A stretch of DNA of 40,342 nt from Rathayibacter sp. VKM Ac-2754. GTDB taxonomy: Bacteria; Actinomycetota; Actinomycetes; Actinomycetales; Microbacteriaceae. Each line of letters opens with the position of its first letter. The first letter of the stretch is position 1. Location: assembly GCF_009807095.1 (NCBI RefSeq), contig NZ_WUCC01000016.1, positions 1 through 40,342 of the forward strand, written 5' to 3'. Of the stretch, positions 20,317 to 27,537 are shown piece after piece. The notes beneath the pieces were generated by a model that made no database searches, had not been told where the DNA came from, and was given only the letters and a program-made list of their open reading frames with translations. The position numbers and the translations under genes were made by a program.

Positions 20317-20607
20317 TCACTGGTAGGCGCGCACGACGCTCCAGCACGGATCCGTCGACGCGATGACGTCGAGGACGAAGGCGCCTCCGGTCTCGAGGTC
20401 GGTGGCCTGGAAGCGCCAGCCGCCGATGCTGACCGGCGCCCCTCCGAAGGTCGGCGGGTAGCCCTCGAGCGGCGCCCACCAGTCGCTCGTGCAGGTCCAC
20501 ACCGTGGGCCGGTCCGTGACGCGGTACCGGCCGCCCCTCCACTCGAGCGCGATCGGCACGCCGTCGTCGTCGGTGGAGACCACCGCGGTCTCGTCGATCA
20601 CCGCCAT
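20317..20607 (-). CDS. DUF6504-like small protein, LexA-box linked
   Basis: 96 residues. It begins MAVIDETAVVSTDDDGVP and contains ALEWRGGRYRV, DWWAPL and GGWRFQATDLETG, a pattern I associate with DUF6504, a small beta-rich domain found in Actinobacteria beside or fused to ImuB-like Y-family polymerase proteins of the SOS mutasome. No catalytic motif is present. The ATG at 20607 has ggagg 8 nt upstream. A perfect LexA box lies 49 nt upstream of the start, between this gene and the divergent polymerase operon. No imuB or dnaE2 is in the window. The family call is from memory of the pattern, not a search. Confidence 0.7.
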   Translation of the reverse strand: MAVIDETAVVSTDDDGVPIALEWRGGRYRVTDRPTVWTCTSDWWAPLEGYPPTFGGAPVSIGGWRFQATDLETGGAFVLDVIASTDPCWSVVRAYQ

Positions 20608-20647
20608 CGACGGCCTCCGTTCGCCTCTGCACGACCCGCCGTGACGG

Positions 20648-20677
20648 TTGGTCGTTCGAACATCTGTTCGATAGTCT
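20648..20677 (+). promoter_or_regulatory. SOS promoter with LexA box
   Basis: The LexA box TCGAACATCTGTTCGA at 20656-20671 is a perfect match to the actinobacterial consensus TCGAAC-N4-GTTCGA. It fills the spacer between a -35 TTGGTC (20648-20653) and a -10 TAGTCT (20672-20677), 18 nt apart, so bound LexA would block the plus-strand promoter directly. It probably also covers the divergent DUF6504 promoter, for which I see no clear -10. Confidence 0.88.
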
Positions 20678-20739
20678 GCGAGTGTACGCCGCGGCGCCCG
20701 TGCTCGCCACGGCCGCGGATCGACCGGGCAGGAGGCGCG

Positions 20740-21033
20740 ATGATCGAGTGGAGTCCCCTCCAGATGCTGCGCAGCAGCGGGCCCGACGAGTGGGTCATGG
20801 TCGACGCGATGCGCACGGGCCGGATCGGTCTCGTCCGCAGGATCGAGACGGGCCCGTACCGCGAGACCTGGTTCAGGGCGGTCACCTGGTCGGCCGATCC
20901 GAGCCGGCGCGAGCTCGTCGGCTACTCGCCGTCGATGGAGGCGATCGCCGACGCGCTCTGGAAGCGGCAGCCGCTCACCGCGCAGGAGAAGCCCTTCCCG
21001 GGCTATCCGCCGTCGACGACGACGGCACGGTGA
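20740..21033 (+). CDS. 97-residue unknown protein of the SOS operon
   Basis: Not recognised. Small soluble protein, rich in Trp, Arg and Met: MIEWSPLQMLRSSGPDEW, then VDAMRTGRIGLVRRIE, YRETWFRAVTW, and a C-terminal helix MEAIADALWKRQPLTAQEK. The alternating strands and single helix resemble small accessory or DNA-contacting proteins, but there is no named motif. ATG 20740 has ggaggcgcg upstream. It is the first gene after the LexA-box promoter, and its stop lies 47 nt before the polymerase start at 21081, or overlaps it if the polymerase begins at GTG 21030. It is therefore expected to be induced by DNA damage together with the polymerase. Confidence 0.7.
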   Translation: MIEWSPLQMLRSSGPDEWVMVDAMRTGRIGLVRRIETGPYRETWFRAVTWSADPSRRELVGYSPSMEAIADALWKRQPLTAQEKPFPGYPPSTTTAR

Positions 21034-21080
21034 TCGCGGCGGCCGGGGTGCGGGCGCGCTCGGCGGGGGAGAATGATCGG

Positions 21081-22682
21081 ATGCTCCTCGCACTCGCCGG
21101 CGGCCCCACGGGGGAGTGGACGGTGCTCTCGGCCGACTCCGGAGAGACGGTGGCCACGGGGCGGGGTCCCCTCGAGCTCGCGTCGCTCGTGCGCGCTCGC
21201 GAGGCCGAGAGGCCGCGCTGGGTGTGGGACGACACCGCACGCTGGTACCCCGCCCTGCTCGAGGCCGGCGTGAGCGTCGCGCGCTGCCACGACCTGCGGC
21301 TGTCGCGGGCGATCCTCCGCCGTTCGGTCGCCACCGCCGGATCTGAGCTCGCGCGGTCGCCCGGCGACGCGTGGGACGGTGGCGCCGCCGTCCCCGCCGC
21401 GGGCGACACCCTGCTCGGCTTCGAGGAGGCATCGGGCGAGGAGGGGGAGCTCGATCCCCTCGAGGAGCTCGCCCGCCAGGAGGCGGCGCTCTCGCGGGCG
21501 ACGGGAGCCGGCCGGCTGCGCCTCCTGCTCGCGGCCGAGTCGGTCGGCGCCCTCATCGCGCGCGAGATCGCCGCCGCCGGTCTGCCCTGGAGCGCCGACG
21601 TCCACGACCGGGTGCTCACCGAGGCGCTCGGGCCCAGGCCGCACTTCGGCGGCCGTCCCGAACGGCTCGAGGCGCTGGCGAACCGCATCCGCGCCGAGCT
21701 CGCGGCTCCCGAGCTGAACCCCGATTCGCCGGCCGACCTGATCCGGGCGCTCCGACGCGGCGGGCTCGCCGTCGAGTCGACCCGCTCCTGGGAGCTGCAG
21801 TCGCTCGAGCACCCGGTGATCGCGCCGCTGCTCGAGTACAAGAAGCTCTCGCGCCTGCTGACGGCGAACGGCTGGGCCTGGTTGGACTCCTGGGTGCACG
21901 GCGGGCGGTTCCGCCCCGAGTACGTGGTCGGCGGCGTGGTCACCGGCCGCTGGGCGACCTCCGGCGGAGGCGCGCTGCAGCTGCCGCGCCAGATCCGCGC
22001 CGCGGTGGTCGCCGATCCCGGCTGGAAGCTGGTCGTCGCCGACGCCGCGCAGCTCGAGCCGCGCATCCTCGCGGCGATGTCCGGCGACTCCGCGATGGCG
22101 GCGGCCGGCCGCGGGCGCGACCTCTACCAGGGCATCGTCGACGCCGGGGTCGTCCCCGATCGGGCGCGGGCCAAGGTCGCGATGCTCGGCGCGATGTACG
22201 GGGCGACGAGCGGGGAGGCGGGGCGACTGCTCCCACGACTCGCCCGGGCGTACCCGCGCTCGGTCGCCCACGTCGAGGCGGCGGCGCGGGCGGGGGAGCG
22301 GGGGGAGCCGGTGTCGACCTGGCTCGGCCGCAGCTCGCCTCCGGGTGCGGCTCTCGACTCCGACGCTCCCGATGCGCGCAGCGGCCAGCGGGCCCGCGAG
22401 TGGGGCCGGTTCACCCGCAACTTCGTCGTGCAGGGCACGGCGGCCGAGTGGGCGCTCTGCTGGATGGGCGAGCTGCGGGCGCGGCTGCGCCAGGGCGACG
22501 CGCACCTCGTGTACTTCCTGCACGACGAGGTCATCGTGCACGCGCCGGCGGAGGCGGCCGACCGCGTCGCGGCGATCCTCCGCGACTCGGCGGTGCGCGC
22601 CGGCCGGGCTCTGTTCGGCGACTCGGAGGTCGACTTCCCGATCACCGTCGCCGTGGTCGACTCGTACGATCAGGCGAAGTAG
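21081..22682 (+). CDS. Family A DNA polymerase (PolA paralogue without 5'-nuclease)
   Basis: Template-directed DNA synthesis. 533 residues, much shorter than PolA because the 5'-nuclease domain is absent and the exonuclease-like N-terminal part (about 1-170) shows no clear DEDD residues. All three polymerase motifs are present: motif A VVADAAQLEPRIL with D321, motif B with K365 and Y373-G374 (KVAMLGAMYG), and motif C HDE at 481-483. Annotation pipelines often name this group bifunctional 3'-5' exonuclease/DNA polymerase. ATG 21081 has gggggaga upstream; GTG 21030 overlaps the previous stop as GTGA and is possible. Control by LexA suggests a role in damage repair or tolerance. A short hairpin follows the gene. 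Confidence 0.88.
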   Translation: MLLALAGGPTGEWTVLSADSGETVATGRGPLELASLVRAREAERPRWVWDDTARWYPALLEAGVSVARCHDLRLSRAILRRSVATAGSELARSPGDAWDGGAAVPAAGDTLLGFEEASGEEGELDPLEELARQEAALSRATGAGRLRLLLAAESVGALIAREIAAAGLPWSADVHDRVLTEALGPRPHFGGRPERLEALANRIRAELAAPELNPDSPADLIRALRRGGLAVESTRSWELQSLEHPVIAPLLEYKKLSRLLTANGWAWLDSWVHGGRFRPEYVVGGVVTGRWATSGGGALQLPRQIRAAVVADPGWKLVVADAAQLEPRILAAMSGDSAMAAAGRGRDLYQGIVDAGVVPDRARAKVAMLGAMYGATSGEAGRLLPRLARAYPRSVAHVEAAARAGERGEPVSTWLGRSSPPGAALDSDAPDARSGQRAREWGRFTRNFVVQGTAAEWALCWMGELRARLRQGDAHLVYFLHDEVIVHAPAEAADRVAAILRDSAVRAGRALFGDSEVDFPITVAVVDSYDQAK

Positions 22683-22722: not shown

Positions 22723-24054
22723 TCAGTACCAGTGCGGCGAGCGCGAGTTCCACTTCGACCAGGCGGTGCACGGCGAGCCGTAGACGTCCGCGATGTACGC
22801 GAGACCCCAGTCGATCTGGGTCGCCGCGTTGGTCTGGTAGTCGGAACCGTAGGTGGCCATCTTGCTGGCGGGCAGGGCCTGCGGGATCCCGTAGGCGCCG
22901 GAGGAGCGGTTCAGCGCGTTCCAGCGCCATCCCGACTCGCCGTTCCAGAGCGGGACGAGGCAGGAGTCCATCTGGTCCTGGCCCCAGCCGTGGTTGCCCA
23001 TCACGGAGCGGGCGTAGGCCTGCGCCTGCGAGGGGGACATGCCGTCGGTGCGACCCGCGTAGGTGCTGAGAGCGGCGATGGTCTGGGCCGAGCTGTTCCG
23101 CGCTCCGGTCGGGTCGTCGTTGCCGAGCTGCAGGGGTCCTCCTCCGGAGGAGGGGGCGGCGGGAGCCGCGACGGGCGCGGGGGCGGCGGGAGCATTCGCT
23201 GCCTGCTGGCGGCGCGCCTCCTCCTCGGCGGCGAGCCGGGACTGGCGCTCCTGCTCCTCGAAGTCGGCCTTGGCCTGCTGACCGGTCGAGTACTCCTCCT
23301 CGAGCGCGGCGGTCGTGTTCTTGAGCGACGCGAGCTGCTCGTAGAGCTGAGCGCTGTACTGCTCCTGCTCGGCGACCTTGGCGTCGGCGTCCGCCTGGGC
23401 GGCCTGCGCGGTCTCGAGCGCGTCCTCGGCGGCCGAGGCGAGCGACGCCCGCTCGGTACGGGCCTGCTCGGCCTGGGTGGCGAGAGCGCCGGCCTGGTTC
23501 TCGGTCGACTCCGCCTCGGTCTGCAGACGGCTGGTCTGCAGGGTGAGCTGGCTCATCGTGCCGAGGCGGTAGAGCAGAGCGTCCGACTCCTGCCCGCCGA
23601 TGAGGAGGTTGAGTGTCGCGTCGGTGCCGCCGTTGCGGTACAGCTGGGCCGCGAGCCGGCCCGCCTGCTCCTTGGCGTCGTCGGCGTCGGCGCGAGCGGC
23701 GTCGGCGCGCTCCTCGAGGGCGGTCACCCGCTGCGTCGCCTCGTCGAGCGCGCTCTGCGCGGCATCGGCCTCGGAGGCCCTGGTGATGGCGGCGTCGGTC
23801 AGCGCAGCGGCCTGATCGCGGAGATCGGCGAGGAAGGAGGTGATGCGGTCGACCTCGGCGGCGGTGGCGGACTCGCTCGACTTCGCTGCCTCGACGTCGG
23901 ACCACGAGGGGTAGTCGGAGGGGTCGTAGGCAGCCGACGCGGTGAGAGGTGAGGCCAGGGCGGTGCAGAGGACGAGGACGGTGCCCGCACCCGCCGCCAG
24001 GAGGCGCCGGCGCGCGCGCGAGGGCGCGCGGACGCCGAGGGGGGAGCGAGACAT
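22723..24054 (-). CDS. Secreted coiled-coil protein with SLT/aggregation-promoting-factor lytic domain
   Basis: Probably cleaves peptidoglycan outside the cell. 443 residues. A signal peptide (basic start, hydrophobic core near 18-35, cleavage likely after TASA at 38-41) is followed by a long Ala/Glu/Gln-rich coiled coil (about 55-290) similar in style to PcsB/RipA-type proteins. Next is a Pro/Ala linker (about 295-315), then a C-terminal lysozyme-like domain. This has WNGESGW with the likely catalytic E373, YGIPQALP, and ends in a Trp-rich tail finishing HWY. ATG 24054 lies 7 nt after a -10 box, so the mRNA looks leaderless. It sits directly behind a PadR gene and may be regulated by it. Confidence 0.85.
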   Translation of the reverse strand: MSRSPLGVRAPSRARRRLLAAGAGTVLVLCTALASPLTASAAYDPSDYPSWSDVEAAKSSESATAAEVDRITSFLADLRDQAAALTDAAITRASEADAAQSALDEATQRVTALEERADAARADADDAKEQAGRLAAQLYRNGGTDATLNLLIGGQESDALLYRLGTMSQLTLQTSRLQTEAESTENQAGALATQAEQARTERASLASAAEDALETAQAAQADADAKVAEQEQYSAQLYEQLASLKNTTAALEEEYSTGQQAKADFEEQERQSRLAAEEEARRQQAANAPAAPAPVAAPAAPSSGGGPLQLGNDDPTGARNSSAQTIAALSTYAGRTDGMSPSQAQAYARSVMGNHGWGQDQMDSCLVPLWNGESGWRWNALNRSSGAYGIPQALPASKMATYGSDYQTNAATQIDWGLAYIADVYGSPCTAWSKWNSRSPHWY

Positions 24055-24061
24055 GCGATCC

Positions 24062-24067
24062 AGCCTA
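24062..24067 (-). promoter_or_regulatory. -10 box of the lytic enzyme gene, overlapping the padR stop
   Basis: On the minus strand TAGGCT is followed by 7 nt and ATG 24054. Its first three bases are the TAG stop codon of the upstream PadR gene. Confidence 0.55.
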
Positions 24068-24646
24068 GGCGACGGCACCAGTCCCTGTCTCGTCCCGGGT
24101 GGCCGCCCGCCGACCGCGACGCGGGCGCTCGAGGGCGAAGCCGCGCACTCCCGAGGCCGCATCGCCCTTCGAGAGCTCCTCTCGAGCGGCCTCGAGGAGG
24201 CTGCGCAGGGCGCCGTCGCGCACCAGTGCCGCACGCGCGGCGAGGCGCCGCTGAGGGTGCTCGTCGAGCAGATCGGCCTCGTCGGGAGGGGTGCTGCCGT
24301 AGGCGTCGAGGACCGCGTCGAGGTCGGCCCCTTCGAGGCTCGAGGCCAGCAGGATGCGGTCGAGCACGTCGTCCCAGTCCTCGGAGGGCGAGGCGCCCTC
24401 TCCGGTCAGCCAGGCGATCGCCTGCGCCCGGCCGTCCTCGGTCAGGGCGTGCAGCGGCAGCCCGTCCTCCGTGGAGCCGGCACCCGTCACGAGCCCGCGC
24501 TCGCGGAGGCGATCGAGCGTCGAGTAGATCTGCCCCACATTCACGCGGCGCCGGTGCGCAGCACGATCGAGCAGCTCGGCGTGCAGCTGGAGACCGTAGG
24601 CGGGCCCGAGGGTGAGGAGAGCCAGCAGACCGTCGCGGACCGACAC
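24065..24646 (-). CDS. PadR-family transcriptional regulator
   Basis: DNA-binding repressor. 193 residues. The N-terminal winged helix (1-80) shows SVRDGLLALLTLGPAYGLQL, VNVGQIYSTLDRLRERGLV and LHALTEDGRAQ, the classical PadR pattern. The rest (about 90-170) is an acidic helical dimerisation region of the long type, ending in a basic tail. Start GTG 24646 has aggag 5 nt upstream, and a -10 box lies about 41 nt upstream. Position suggests control of the downstream lytic enzyme or of itself. The ligand is unknown. Confidence 0.88.
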   Translation of the reverse strand: MSVRDGLLALLTLGPAYGLQLHAELLDRAAHRRRVNVGQIYSTLDRLRERGLVTGAGSTEDGLPLHALTEDGRAQAIAWLTGEGASPSEDWDDVLDRILLASSLEGADLDAVLDAYGSTPPDEADLLDEHPQRRLAARAALVRDGALRSLLEAAREELSKGDAASGVRGFALERPRRGRRAATRDETGTGAVA

Positions 24647-24686
24647 GGAGCTCCTGTCGGATCAGAGGGAGGGACGGACGATCCCG

Positions 24687-24692
24687 AGTATA
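24687..24692 (-). promoter_or_regulatory. -10 box of the padR gene
   Basis: TATACT on the minus strand, close to the TATAAT consensus, about 41 nt before the GTG start. The -35 region is not recognisable. Confidence 0.5.
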
Positions 24693-24736
24693 GGCAGGGG
24701 ATCCGGGCTCACGGTCGGCAGGCGCGGCGAGCCGTC

Positions 24737-24765
24737 TTGTCGGCGCGGAGACCCTGTTGCATAAT
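24737..24765 (+). promoter_or_regulatory. Housekeeping promoter of the DUF3145 gene
   Basis: TTGTCG (24737-24742) and CATAAT (24760-24765) with a 17-nt spacer, among the best sigma-A-like promoters in the window. It gives a 5' leader of roughly 95 nt before ATG 24868. Confidence 0.65.
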
Positions 24766-24867
24766 CTGACGTGGTGGCTCGTCCACCGTCTAATCGAAGA
24801 ATGCACCACTCGTCGTTTCGTGGTCCGGGTCGTTGGGGAAGACGCACCGGGACGGACGGAGGACAGC

Positions 24868-25371
24868 ATGGTGGCGCTACAGACTCGGGGTGTGCTCTTC
24901 GTGCACTCCGCCCCCCGCGCGCTCTGCCCCCATCTCGAATGGGGAGCGGGTCGCGCTCTCGGTCGACCCGTGAACTTCTCGTGGATCGAGCAGCCGGTGC
25001 TCCGCGGCACGCAGCGCGCCGAGTTCGAGTGGGAGGGCCCGGTCGGAACCGGTGCGACGATCGCCTCCGCCCTCAGGGGCTGGGAGGACGTCCGCTACGA
25101 GGTCACGGAGGAGCCGGCCCCCGGCACCGACGGCGGACGGTGGATGCACACGCCCGCGCTCGGCATCTTCTACGCCCAGACCGACAGCGTCGGCAACACG
25201 GTCATCCCGGAGGACCGCATCCGCTCCGCCATGGAGATCGCCGGAGCCGACCCCATCGAGCTGCACCGCGAACTCCGCCTCGCCCTCGGCCAGGCCTGGG
25301 AGGACGAACTCGAGCCCTTCCGCTCGGCCAGCGACTTCGCGCCGGTCGTGTGGCTGCACCGAGTGGGCTGA
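24868..25371 (+). CDS. DUF3145 family protein
   Basis: 167 residues, a family conserved in and almost confined to Actinobacteria; function unknown. Recognised by TRGVLFVHSAPRALCPHLEW, GRPVNFSWIEQPV, FEWEGPVGTGATIASALRGW and YEVTEEP. It is soluble, with a mix of strands and helices and no catalytic motif. ATG 24868 has ggacggagg upstream at good spacing. It has its own strong promoter and a long leader. The TGA stop lies exactly in the loop of a 13-bp hairpin. Its neighbours (a PadR gene behind it, gene-free repeats ahead) say nothing about its role. Confidence 0.9.
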   Translation: MVALQTRGVLFVHSAPRALCPHLEWGAGRALGRPVNFSWIEQPVLRGTQRAEFEWEGPVGTGATIASALRGWEDVRYEVTEEPAPGTDGGRWMHTPALGIFYAQTDSVGNTVIPEDRIRSAMEIAGADPIELHRELRLALGQAWEDELEPFRSASDFAPVVWLHRVG

Positions 25372-25384
25372 GCCCACTCGGTGC
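25356..25384 (+). terminator. Hairpin with the DUF3145 stop codon in its loop
   Basis: Perfect 13-bp stem: 25356-25368 (gcaccgagtgggc) with 25372-25384, loop TGA 25369-25371. The loop is the stop codon, so the left arm encodes the last residues. No T-tract follows. A stalled ribosome at the stop would cover the hairpin, so it may form only after release. Confidence 0.6.
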
Positions 25385-25549
25385 CTGCGCCGCTCCTCGC
25401 ACGGCGCAGCGCGGTCGACTCTGCGGGGTGGTCGCGACTCAGAGAGCGTCCTGCGTTCGGCGACGGTGATTCGCTGGATACGCCTCCACCTTGCGGGTTT
25501 TAGGTCGTGACCACGTAAGCGTTCAATCGGCCCGGCTCGCCGCCATCCA

Positions 25550-25674
25550 TGCTGGTCGAGTAGCCCCGCAGGGGCGTATCGAGACCCACCAGCGTCAGCA
25601 GACGAGGTTGAATCCTGGCCTTCTGACGGACGTGGATCTCGATACGCCCGCTTCGCGGGCTACTCGATCAGCGA
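25550..25674. repeat. Nested palindromic intergenic repeat, copy B
   Basis: Nearly identical to copy A in both arms: tgctggtcgagtagcc at the left end, ggctactcgatcagcg-like at the right end. The small hairpins are GCCCC-GCA-GGGGC and GCCCGC-TTC-GCGGGC. The inner pairing cgtcag/ctgacg is kept, while the central 20 nt or so differ from copy A. Copy C follows after 54 bp. Confidence 0.85.
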
Positions 25675-25728
25675 GGGAGGGGCCCGCACGCGGGAGGTCT
25701 CTTCCGAGGAGGAGGGGGACCGCGAGTC

Positions 25729-25855
25729 TGCTGGTCGAGTAGCCGCCGGAGGCGGCGTATCGAGACCCACCAGAGTCAGCAGTGCGGGCTTCTGTCTTCG
25801 ACTTCTGATGCTGGTGGATCTCGACACGCCCGCTGGGCGGGCTACTCGATCAGCG
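25729..25855. repeat. Nested palindromic intergenic repeat, copy C
   Basis: Same architecture, more diverged. The small left hairpin is GCCGCC-GGA-GGCGGC instead of GCCCC-GCA-GGGGC, with changes on both sides that keep the stem. The right one is GCCCGC-TGG-GCGGGC. The inner stem reads ccaccagagtcag against ctgatgctggtgg. It is in the same orientation as copy B. Confidence 0.85.
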
Positions 25856-26167
25856 GGGAAGGAATGCCCCGTCGTCCGCTGCGGGAGGCGGAGCCCACTT
25901 CGGAGGGAGTGACGCGGCGCAGCCCGCGATGTGACCAGCGTGCAGCTCGCCGTGCTGACGACGTATCCAGCACGAGAGCCTCTGCAGAAGGGCTCCTGAC
26001 TCCAGCACTCCGGGCGGAGACGCGCGGCGAAGCTCGCGCCCTTAGGACGTGAGCCTGCAGACCACCCTCGCGCCCCGAGGCGTATCCGTCGATTCGCGTC
26101 CCAGCGGATCGACGTCGCCGCACCGCACCGGCCCTGCGATCCGCGACCACCCCGGAAGCGGACGCGC
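25856..26167. other. Gene-free stretch between repeat C and the fabF terminator
   Basis: About 310 bp with no credible coding sequence. The longest open frames run through the repeats or give random Arg/Ser/Ala-rich translations without a ribosome site. Base composition is a little less GC-biased at third positions than in the genes. I see no RNA gene fold. Together with copies B and C it makes a gap of about 860 bp between two convergent 3' ends. Confidence 0.5.
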
Positions 26168-26192
26168 CGACGCCGCGCAGGGAGCGGCGTCG
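26168..26192 (-). terminator. Second hairpin downstream of fabF
   Basis: CGACGCCGC (26168-26176) pairs with GCGGCGTCG (26184-26192), 9 bp, loop 7 nt. On the minus strand it follows the large fabF hairpin. It may be a back-up terminator. Confidence 0.4.
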
Positions 26193-26193
26193 C

Positions 26194-26248
26194 CCGCGTT
26201 CCGGTCGGTGTGACGGGGCTACGCCCCGTTACACCGACCGGAACGCGG
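26194..26248 (-). terminator. 26-bp hairpin spanning the fabF stop codon
   Basis: 26194-26219 pairs with 26223-26248 around a 3-nt loop. Of 26 pairs one is a G-T wobble (next to the fabF stop). The right arm contains the last five or six fabF codons and the stop TAA (26229-26231). It ends the fab transcript on the minus strand. There is no T-tract. Confidence 0.65.
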
Positions 26249-27464
26249 CAACAGCATTGTGTCCGCCGAATCCGAACGAATTGGACAGGGCCACCTGCGG
26301 CCCGTCGCCCAGCGCCCTGGGGCTCGTCACGACGTCGAGGGGGATCTGCGGGTCCTGCTCGGTGAGGTTGATCGTCGGCGGGGCGGTGCGCTCGTGGAGG
26401 GCGAGGACCGTGAAGATCGCCTCGAGGGCGCCGGTGCCGCCGAGGAGGTGGCCGGTGGCGGCCTTGGTGGCCGAGACGGCGATGTTCGGGAGGTGGTCGC
26501 CGAAGACGCGGGCGAGGGCGCGGTACTCGGCGATGTCGCCGACGGGAGTGCTGGTCGCGTGCGCGTTGACGTGGGTGACGTCGGTGCGGGCGGCTCCGGC
26601 CTGCTCGAGGGCCTCGATCATGGCGCGGGCGGCGGCGGAGCCCTCGGGGTCGGGGGCGGTGATGTGGTACGAGTCGCTGGTCACCGCTCCGCCGGCGAGC
26701 TCGGCGTAGATGCGGGCGCCGCGGGCGAGGGCGTGCTCCTCGGTCTCGAGGATGAGGGTGGCCGCTCCTTCGCCGAGGACGAAGCCGTCGCGGGAGACAT
26801 CGTAGGGGCGCGAGGCGGCGGCGGGGTCGTCATTGCGTCGCGACAGGGCCTGCATGGCCGCGAAGGCCGCGATGGGCAGCGGGTGCACGACCGACTCGGT
26901 GCCGCCGGCGATGACGACGTCGGCGAGGCCGCGCTGGAGGTGCTCGTAGGCGTTGGCGATCGCCTCGGTGCTCGACGCGCAGGCCGAGACGTCGGTGCGG
27001 GCGTAGGCGCGGGAGGGGATGGCCATGCTGATCGCGGCGGCGGCGGCGTTCGGCATGAGCATCGGGATGGTCATGGGGAGGACGCGTCGCGGCCCGCGCT
27101 CGCGCAGGGTGTCCCACGCGTCGGTGAGGGTCCAGAGTCCGCCGATGCCGGTGGAGTAGTCGACGCCGACGCGCAGCGGGTCGACGTCGGTGATGCCGGA
27201 GTCGGCCCAGGCCTCGCGCGCCGAGATCAGCGCGAACTGGCTGGAGGGGTCGAGGCGCTTCGCCTCGGGGCGGGAGAGCACCTCCTCGGGGCGGACCTTG
27301 GCCTGCCCGGCGAAGGTGACGGGGATGTCGAGCTCCGACACCCAGTCGGCCTCGATGGTGCGCACACCCGACTCGCCCGCGAGCAGGGCGGTCCACGATT
27401 CGCGGGCCGTTCCTCCGAGCGGAGTGCTGGCTCCGATGCCGGTGACGACGATTTTCTTGGTCAT
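26229..27464 (-). CDS. fabF: Beta-ketoacyl-ACP synthase II
   Basis: Condenses malonyl-ACP with a growing acyl-ACP in type II fatty-acid synthesis. 411 residues, standard length. The catalytic triad is visible: C162 in DVSACASST, H302 in HVNAHATSTPVGD and H339 in ATGHLLGGTGALE, with K334 before it. The C-terminus FGFGGHNA is typical. ATG 27464 starts the family sequence KKIVVTGIGASTPLGG; the ribosome site is weak. It is the last gene of fasR-fabD-fabH-acpP-fabF. A 34-bp inverted repeat lies between acpP and this gene and may lower its expression relative to acyl carrier protein. Confidence 0.96.
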   Translation of the reverse strand: MTKKIVVTGIGASTPLGGTARESWTALLAGESGVRTIEADWVSELDIPVTFAGQAKVRPEEVLSRPEAKRLDPSSQFALISAREAWADSGITDVDPLRVGVDYSTGIGGLWTLTDAWDTLRERGPRRVLPMTIPMLMPNAAAAAISMAIPSRAYARTDVSACASSTEAIANAYEHLQRGLADVVIAGGTESVVHPLPIAAFAAMQALSRRNDDPAAASRPYDVSRDGFVLGEGAATLILETEEHALARGARIYAELAGGAVTSDSYHITAPDPEGSAAARAMIEALEQAGAARTDVTHVNAHATSTPVGDIAEYRALARVFGDHLPNIAVSATKAATGHLLGGTGALEAIFTVLALHERTAPPTINLTEQDPQIPLDVVTSPRALGDGPQVALSNSFGFGGHNAVAAFRSV

Positions 27465-27503
27465 GACGACGTTCTCTGTTCCGTGACGGGTGGGTGCCGG
27501 GCG

Positions 27504-27537
27504 CACCCCGGGCCGGGCGATCGCCCGGGCCGGGGTG
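27504..27537 (-). terminator. 34-bp inverted repeat between acpP and fabF
   Basis: Two 17-nt arms, 27504-27520 and 27521-27537, complementary at 16 of 17 positions with no spacer; the core is ccgggcgatcgcccgg. It lies 33 nt after the acpP stop on the minus strand. It may be an attenuator or a processing/stabilising structure for the acpP mRNA. Confidence 0.55.

Follow-up and report, generated by a model that had tools for sequence, protein, structure and literature searches.

A divergent cassette with a conserved LexA box joins a PolA2-type DNA polymerase and two small proteins in Rathayibacter

The plant-associated bacterium Rathayibacter sp. VKM Ac-2754 carries a cassette of three genes arranged around a LexA box on a 40,342-nt stretch of contig NZ_WUCC01000016.1 (the window, within a genome of 3.97 Mb). 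The box, TCGAACATCTGTTCGA (20656..20671), is an exact palindrome with no strand assigned. It lies in the 18-bp spacer of a promoter (20648..20677, plus strand) composed of TTGGTC (20648-20653) and TAGTCT (20672-20677), and the 13-base block GCGAGTGTACGCC (20678..20690, plus strand) directly follows the -10 element on its 3' side. On the minus strand lies P96 (20317..20607), a DUF6504-like small protein of 96 aa, all-beta in its model, that appears to resemble the C-terminal domain of ImuB (ImuB-C). On the plus strand, the promoter reads towards P97 (20740..21033), a putative small damage-response protein of 97 aa from an undescribed Microbacteriaceae family, and then, after a gap of 47 bp, towards PolA2 (21081..22682), a family-A DNA polymerase of the PolA2/APEX type with 533 aa, no 5' nuclease and a putatively vestigial exonuclease domain. 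Both the perfect LexA box in the promoter spacer and the divergent layout, which had been claimed in an original prediction made from this DNA alone, were confirmed at these positions.

We found that TCGAACATCTGTTCGA is the sole exact LexA-box match inside the window. When up to two mismatches are allowed, the window presents 5 sites (mean of 2.81 in shuffled sequences, with at least 5 in 13 of 100 shuffles); this count is at chance level, and the weight therefore rests on the exact match and on its conservation. Five exact copies were detected in the genome, including the one of this cassette. The other four lie at recA, ruvC/ruvA, imuA'-imuB-dnaE2 and a mobile-looking region (some of these genes being named from their translations), which gives the cassette box the same exact form as the boxes of well-known SOS genes. 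Genome-wide, we counted 33 sites per strand with at most one mismatch, versus 7 for a reversed control pattern. Across the genus (15 Rathayibacter genomes, own genome included), P96, P97 and the polymerase were matched side by side in all 15 genomes, with the box exact in 14 and carrying two mismatches in the last one (G009). The alignment of these loci indicates that TAGTCT and GCGAGTGTACGCC are each exact in 12 of the 15, while the -35 element is variable. The co-occurrence of the three genes in related genomes is thus upheld, although P96 was matched only in pieces and looks frame-broken in G001 (L013); in G002 (L016), the match to P97 is limited to residues 34-91 and the N-terminus is unmatched. 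The median dN/dS was 0.24 for P96 (13 genes, 78 pairs) and 0.22 for P97 (14 genes, 90 pairs), which indicates that both are proteins under purifying selection. We consider it very probable that LexA would bind this box and control the divergent unit.

The polymerase matches the NCBIfam family NF011538 with 730 bits (cut-off of 389). The Pfam scan identified DNA_pol_A alone (PF00476, 90 bits) and matched no exonuclease domain, the 5'-3' exonuclease domain included. Motifs A, B and C are intact, both relative to Taq and in an alignment of 26 PolA2 proteins, with what we take to be the key residues in place (D/E in motif A, K/Y in motif B, HDE in motif C). The description of this gene as a family-A polymerase with intact motifs and no 5'-nuclease was therefore correct. 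The best start is ATG 21081, whose sequence context is conserved; the start GTG 21030 was rejected because this conserved context belongs to ATG 21081. A leaderless form of 666 aa starting from GTG 20682 was also rejected, since L014 and L015 lack this GTG and the spacer varies in length. By similarity, the polymerase is assigned to the described PolA2/APEX group. In the available text of a 2026 survey (PMC12926913), this group is restricted to Actinobacteria, lacks the 5' nuclease, has an inactive 3'-5' exonuclease and carries the clamp motif QxxLF; its role "remains to be established" and mutagenic repair is suspected. At the place of this motif (21405..21422, plus strand; located with the 26-protein alignment), the window polymerase reads DTLLGF, and not QxxLF. 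Most rows of the genus present L(L/V/I)GF and most other rows LF; the Q is found in L047 and L048, the two order-level rows, and is absent from most of the remaining ones. DTLLGF presumably resembles the six-residue form of the clamp motif found in Pol IV.

P96 itself scores 19.2 bits against DUF6504 (PF20114), under the cut-off of 24.2. Its relatives in L094, L288, L296 and L300 pass the cut-off (the relative in L107 does not), and we therefore label P96 as DUF6504-like: the predicted assignment holds through these relatives and not through the score of P96 itself. The P96 family was found in at least 117 of 199 Microbacteriaceae genomes and at least 50 of 78 genera, as well as in 67 of 296 genomes of a sample of the class (family counts for P96 and P97 are lower bounds, with 16-25 candidates scored per genome). 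Most fetched members present a LexA box: with at most one mismatch and within 150 bp upstream, a box was found in 53 of the 62 fetched loci (32 exact), against a mean of 0.011 and a maximum of 1 for 179 controls in which the half-sites were permuted. The class-wide search yielded a box in 19 of 29 loci, and in 13 of 22 outside Microbacteriaceae, with controls at 0. DnaE-type matches lie within 300 bp of the middle of the P96 gene in 11 of the 62 loci and DnaE-type genes adjoin it in 14 of the 29 class-wide loci, in agreement with the claim that DUF6504-like proteins go with mutasome-type genes. A full imuA'-imuB-dnaE2 set is near P96 in three of the 62 loci, and a fourth locus has ImuA only. 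PolA2 lies within 6 kb of P96 in 6 of the 62 loci (3 genera) and a P97-family gene diverges across the same box in 3 of them; both counts are biased, because some loci were picked for such neighbors. Indeed, 60 of the 62 loci come from the 199-genome search, mostly one per genus, and L107 and L108 were fetched because P96 is near PolA2; three genomes (G128, G183 and G226) were included as relatives of G030, and three others (G123, G157 and G214) because a divergent P97 had already been seen there.

We then compared the P96 family (a profile of 70 rows, including repeats of the same genes) to the ~90 C-terminal residues of 29 ImuB sequences. The two profiles align end to end (hhalign score of 27.8, E-value of 2.9e-4, probability of 40%), and the score exceeds those of 100 column shuffles (at most 16.2), a reversed profile (12.7) and 13 PolA2 windows (13.8). 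Adding the class-wide set gave a score of 23.6 (shuffles at most 17.2). The predicted structure of P96 is all-beta with seven strands (mean pLDDT of 69.7), and, with regard to the conserved C-terminal tryptophan that marks ImuB-C, W89 is invariant in 15 sequences. The available parts of PMC6511836, PMC3765255 and PMC12926913 describe ImuB-C as a beta-barrel that ends ImuB, is modelled to bind DnaE2 and also occurs as a standalone SOS protein. P96 is therefore likely to be a diverged standalone ImuB-C. More generally, these results suggest that proteins of the DUF6504-like type are standalone relatives of ImuB-C and that their genes are common members of the SOS response in Microbacteriaceae. 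In L288 and L296, a LexA box, DUF6504, a small gene and a DnaE-type gene follow one another in what is an actinobacterial SOS layout; the small gene of L288 is a SAV_6107-type HEPN by Pfam.

As predicted, the 97-residue protein is unrecognized: P97 has no match in Pfam, NCBIfam or PHROGs, and a profile search recovered no relative of solved structure (one chain, E-value of 2.2). Its model forms a beta-meander plus a helix (mean pLDDT of 83.5), and a fold search with it returned nothing at an E-value of 0.001 or lower. Using a 13-member alignment, we found the family in at least 113 of 299 Microbacteriaceae genomes and at least 39 of 78 genera. Outside the genus, 107 unique P97-family genes were present in the fetched loci, weaker matches being left out; a LexA box (at most one mismatch, within 150 bp upstream) precedes 18 of them in 9 genera, relative to a mean of 0.03 and a maximum of 1 in the controls. 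In G023, where ImuB lies in two overlapping pieces, a P97-family gene lies immediately 3' of dnaE2. Two queries found no P97 match in annotated phages, and plasmids yielded one weak match. P97-family genes adjoin lysis-type genes (by eye, peptidase and holin-like) in L222, L227 and the viral contigs L273 and L274, and those of L222 and L227 have LexA boxes with one mismatch; these genes are phage-borne versions of the family. A conserved leader GCAG(C/U)GGCCGG(G/A)CUGCUCC ... GGAGCA was also observed before the start of 28 P97-family genes (e.g., L017, L022, L168, L182 and L194). By eye it forms a short stem with paired changes, RNAalifold gave a 3-bp stem only, and no Rfam family was matched in the loci searched. 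Judging from its relatives and their upstream regions, P97 founds a putative damage-response family of its own that is undescribed.

Many P97-family genes without a LexA box present another promoter. We searched the 220 bp upstream of 121 of the 122 P97-family genes, and TGTCRG-N10/11-TANNNT was found before 39 of the 85 genes without a box (at most two mismatches; e.g., L017, L022, L166, L181 and L182), relative to one of the 36 genes with a box. Only the spacings of 10 and 11 were recovered among those from 6 to 16. The largest count across 200 shuffles was 2; permuted motifs include near-copies of the pattern that score up to 33, and the shuffles are the cleaner control. A LexA-independent damage promoter of mycobacteria, tTGTCRgtg-8nt-TannnT, is described in the available text of PMC5656591, where PafBC acts on such promoters. 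The promoters of the box-less P97 genes appear PafBC-like and close to this published form, and PafBC may putatively act on them. The strict pattern was found before PolA2 in none of 30 loci (14 of the genus). Inspection of the sequences upstream of PolA2 led us, post hoc, to a less strict pattern, TGTC-N12/13-NA[CG]A[ACT]T, which lies just before 7 of 20 out-of-genus PolA2 genes: 7 of 16 fetched loci (L050, L051, L052, L055, L061, L062 and L068) and none of four further genes (L378 and L405-L407; L107 and L108 are duplicates of two loci already among the 16). TGTC ranks first of the 256 tetramers at this place (7 of 14 loci; next tetramer in 4; mean of 0.09), two order-level loci without a match being dropped from the 16. 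The absence of the strict form makes this TGTC-type element a weak point, and none of the 10 genus loci tested has it.

The genome also encodes imuA', imuB and dnaE2 outside this cassette (G000:C13, 156-162 kb), with a separate exact box, and ImuB is present in all 15 genomes of the genus. The original prediction that imuA, imuB and dnaE2 are lacking therefore holds within the window but not for the genome. Likewise, its proposal of an SOS module built on PolA instead of DnaE2 or a Y-family enzyme was right about the type of polymerase, but the cassette is no stand-in: with the mutasome operon under its own exact box and ImuB in every genome, it represents a second arm, and replacement of the ImuB/DnaE2 system was rejected, both being in the same genome. 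In G030 and G035, P96 with an exact box lies ~3 kb from PolA2, which indicates that the nearness of these two genes is old. The neighbors of PolA2 (window 22723-27506) are kept in these two genomes (L107 and L108), including fatty-acid synthesis genes and a gene that we take to be DUF3145-like, and the place of PolA2 therefore looks ancestral. We infer that a P97 gene and the loss of intervening genes may have placed PolA2 behind the pre-existing box of P96, in the genus ancestor. Among other boxes of the genome, L030 and L031 (C13:398329 and C1:18823) are an exact box and a box with one mismatch in mobile-looking regions that present, by eye, an ERF-like and a ParA-like gene. The recA gene (L026) has an exact LexA box plus the PafBC-like promoter form described above (here TGTCGG-N10-TACCGT) between the box and the gene, an arrangement that resembles the double promoter of mycobacterial recA.

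We propose the following mechanism. A divergent LexA-repressed promoter region would drive P96 in one direction and the P97-PolA2 operon in the opposite one; upon DNA damage, RecA* would trigger the cleavage of LexA and the three proteins would be made. P96 would be a standalone relative of the ImuB domain for which models predict DnaE2 binding, and P97 would be a small protein belonging to a damage-response family. PolA2 is an A-family enzyme that has no 5' nuclease and comes from a group devoid of proofreading; it may work with the sliding clamp and would most likely extend or gap-fill across damage at low fidelity. P96 and/or P97 would be its accessory or recruiting factors, and this arm would act alongside the ImuA'-ImuB-DnaE2 mutasome that the genome also encodes. 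The regulation is well supported by the sequence itself, through the box, the promoter, the gene order, their conservation and the family relations; LexA binding, induction, low fidelity and contacts between the proteins are inferences. We hold it reasonably likely, overall, that damage, by relieving LexA, co-induces an ImuB-C-like factor, P97 and a low-fidelity PolA2, which would form a second inducible arm of DNA synthesis. The more secure part is the joint induction of PolA2 and P97, which appears likely, and the evidence leans, somewhat less firmly, towards PolA2 being an inducible low-fidelity enzyme of gap filling or bypass. It is only a tentative suggestion, and a rather doubtful one, that P96 or P97 would be a physical partner of PolA2.

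Several observations weigh against this interpretation. A LexA box (at most one mismatch, within 1.5 kb upstream) precedes PolA2 in none of the 16 fetched loci outside the genus, which suggests that SOS control of PolA2 is a trait of the genus. The possibility that P97 always precedes this polymerase and a LexA box, raised by the original prediction, agrees with all 15 Rathayibacter genomes but was rejected more broadly: none of the 107 out-of-genus P97-family genes has a PolA2 match in its fetched flanks, and the linkage is seen in this genus only. Because of this, and because 46 of the 85 box-less P97-family genes show neither type of promoter, P97 need not be the partner of a polymerase. 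The clamp motif lacks its Q and reads LLGF instead of LF, and the class-wide P96 set taken alone matches ImuB-C weakly (score of 17.0, probability of 1.6%). The LexA targets given for Streptomyces venezuelae in the available text of PMC9380542 include dnaE2 and dinP and no PolA. Finally, PolA2 starts 47 bp behind P97 and GAGAAT is kept just before its start, which leaves room for a promoter of its own. PolA2 could thus be a bystander, an old neighbor with its own promoter that is not meaningfully induced, while LexA controls the P96/P97 pair; LexA boxes at P96 and P97 without PolA2 in other genera, the box-less PolA2 loci and the ~3 kb between P96 and PolA2 in G030 and G035 all fit this scenario. 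However, PolA2 shares the strand of P97 behind a short gap, in an order kept in 15 of 15 genomes, and the TGTC-type element that precedes it in other genera is absent from the genus loci tested, and we consider the scenario quite unlikely.

A different possibility, compatible with the regulation that we propose, is that P96 and P97 serve another damage process (for example DNA binding, cell-cycle arrest, or prophage or mobile-element control) instead of acting as subunits of a polymerase, PolA2 being simply co-induced. P97-family genes beside the lysis-type genes of prophage-like regions and of two viral contigs are consistent with it, as are the standalone ImuB-C proteins found with Ku/ligase or SplB in the available part of PMC3765255. 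It is, however, somewhat unlikely in view of the P96-family genes that adjoin DnaE-type genes and the P97-family gene that immediately follows dnaE2 in G023. The likeness of P96 to ImuB-C might itself be due to chance, P96 being an unrelated beta protein that shares LexA control only. The hhalign probability is indeed just 40% and the class-wide set alone is weak, but the alignment is collinear over the full length, its score is far above those of the shuffles, the reversed profile and the PolA2 windows, and the P96 model is all-beta; a chance likeness is therefore improbable. A broader joint scenario would make PolA2 damage-inducible across Microbacteriaceae through a PafBC-like promoter in many genera, with Rathayibacter having swapped to LexA by capture behind P96-box-P97, the P97 family alternating between LexA and PafBC, and P96, P97 and PolA2 forming an unseen mutasome of ImuB-C and an A-family polymerase. 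Taken as a whole, this scenario is unlikely.

The LexA operon, PolA2 and ImuB-C are kinds already known. The polymerase shares its NF011538 family, its intact polymerase motifs and its missing 5' nuclease with described PolA2/APEX proteins; it differs by its position in an operon preceded by a LexA box and by the L(L/V/I)GF of most genus members, versus (Q)xxLF. As with the standalone ImuB-C of SOS operons (available parts of PMC3765255, PMC6511836 and PMC12926913), P96 is preceded by a LexA box and appears to be a small beta protein with a profile likeness to the ImuB C-terminus, and its family lies near an inducible-type polymerase in several genera. In contrast, the partners described there are DinB/PolY, DnaE2, UmuC, Ku/ligase and SplB, with no A-family polymerase. 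Like the ImuA'-ImuB-DnaE2 mutasome, the cassette appears to be a LexA-controlled multi-gene module around a putative low-fidelity polymerase, but it contains neither ImuA', nor a Y-family core, nor DnaE2. The promoter form of 39 of the 85 box-less P97-family genes is close to that of PafBC-dependent mycobacterial promoters, whereas the window genes carry a LexA box instead. In the literature searched, from which the APEX paper (PMC10201439) was absent, we found no description of a single LexA box shared by PolA2 and an ImuB-C-like protein, and none of the P97 family. The same search returned no paper with "DUF6504", none with "Rathayibacter" and "LexA", and none with "Microbacteriaceae" and "SOS box".

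PolA2/APEX is found only in Actinobacteria, and its cellular role was stated to be unknown in the available text of the 2026 survey (PMC12926913). The conserved LexA box before PolA2 in one genus makes its suspected part in mutagenic repair directly testable, and the cassette points to PolA2 as an inducible damage polymerase. Together with it, an unnamed family of putative damage-response proteins is gained, that of P97, whose genes present two alternative damage-type promoters.

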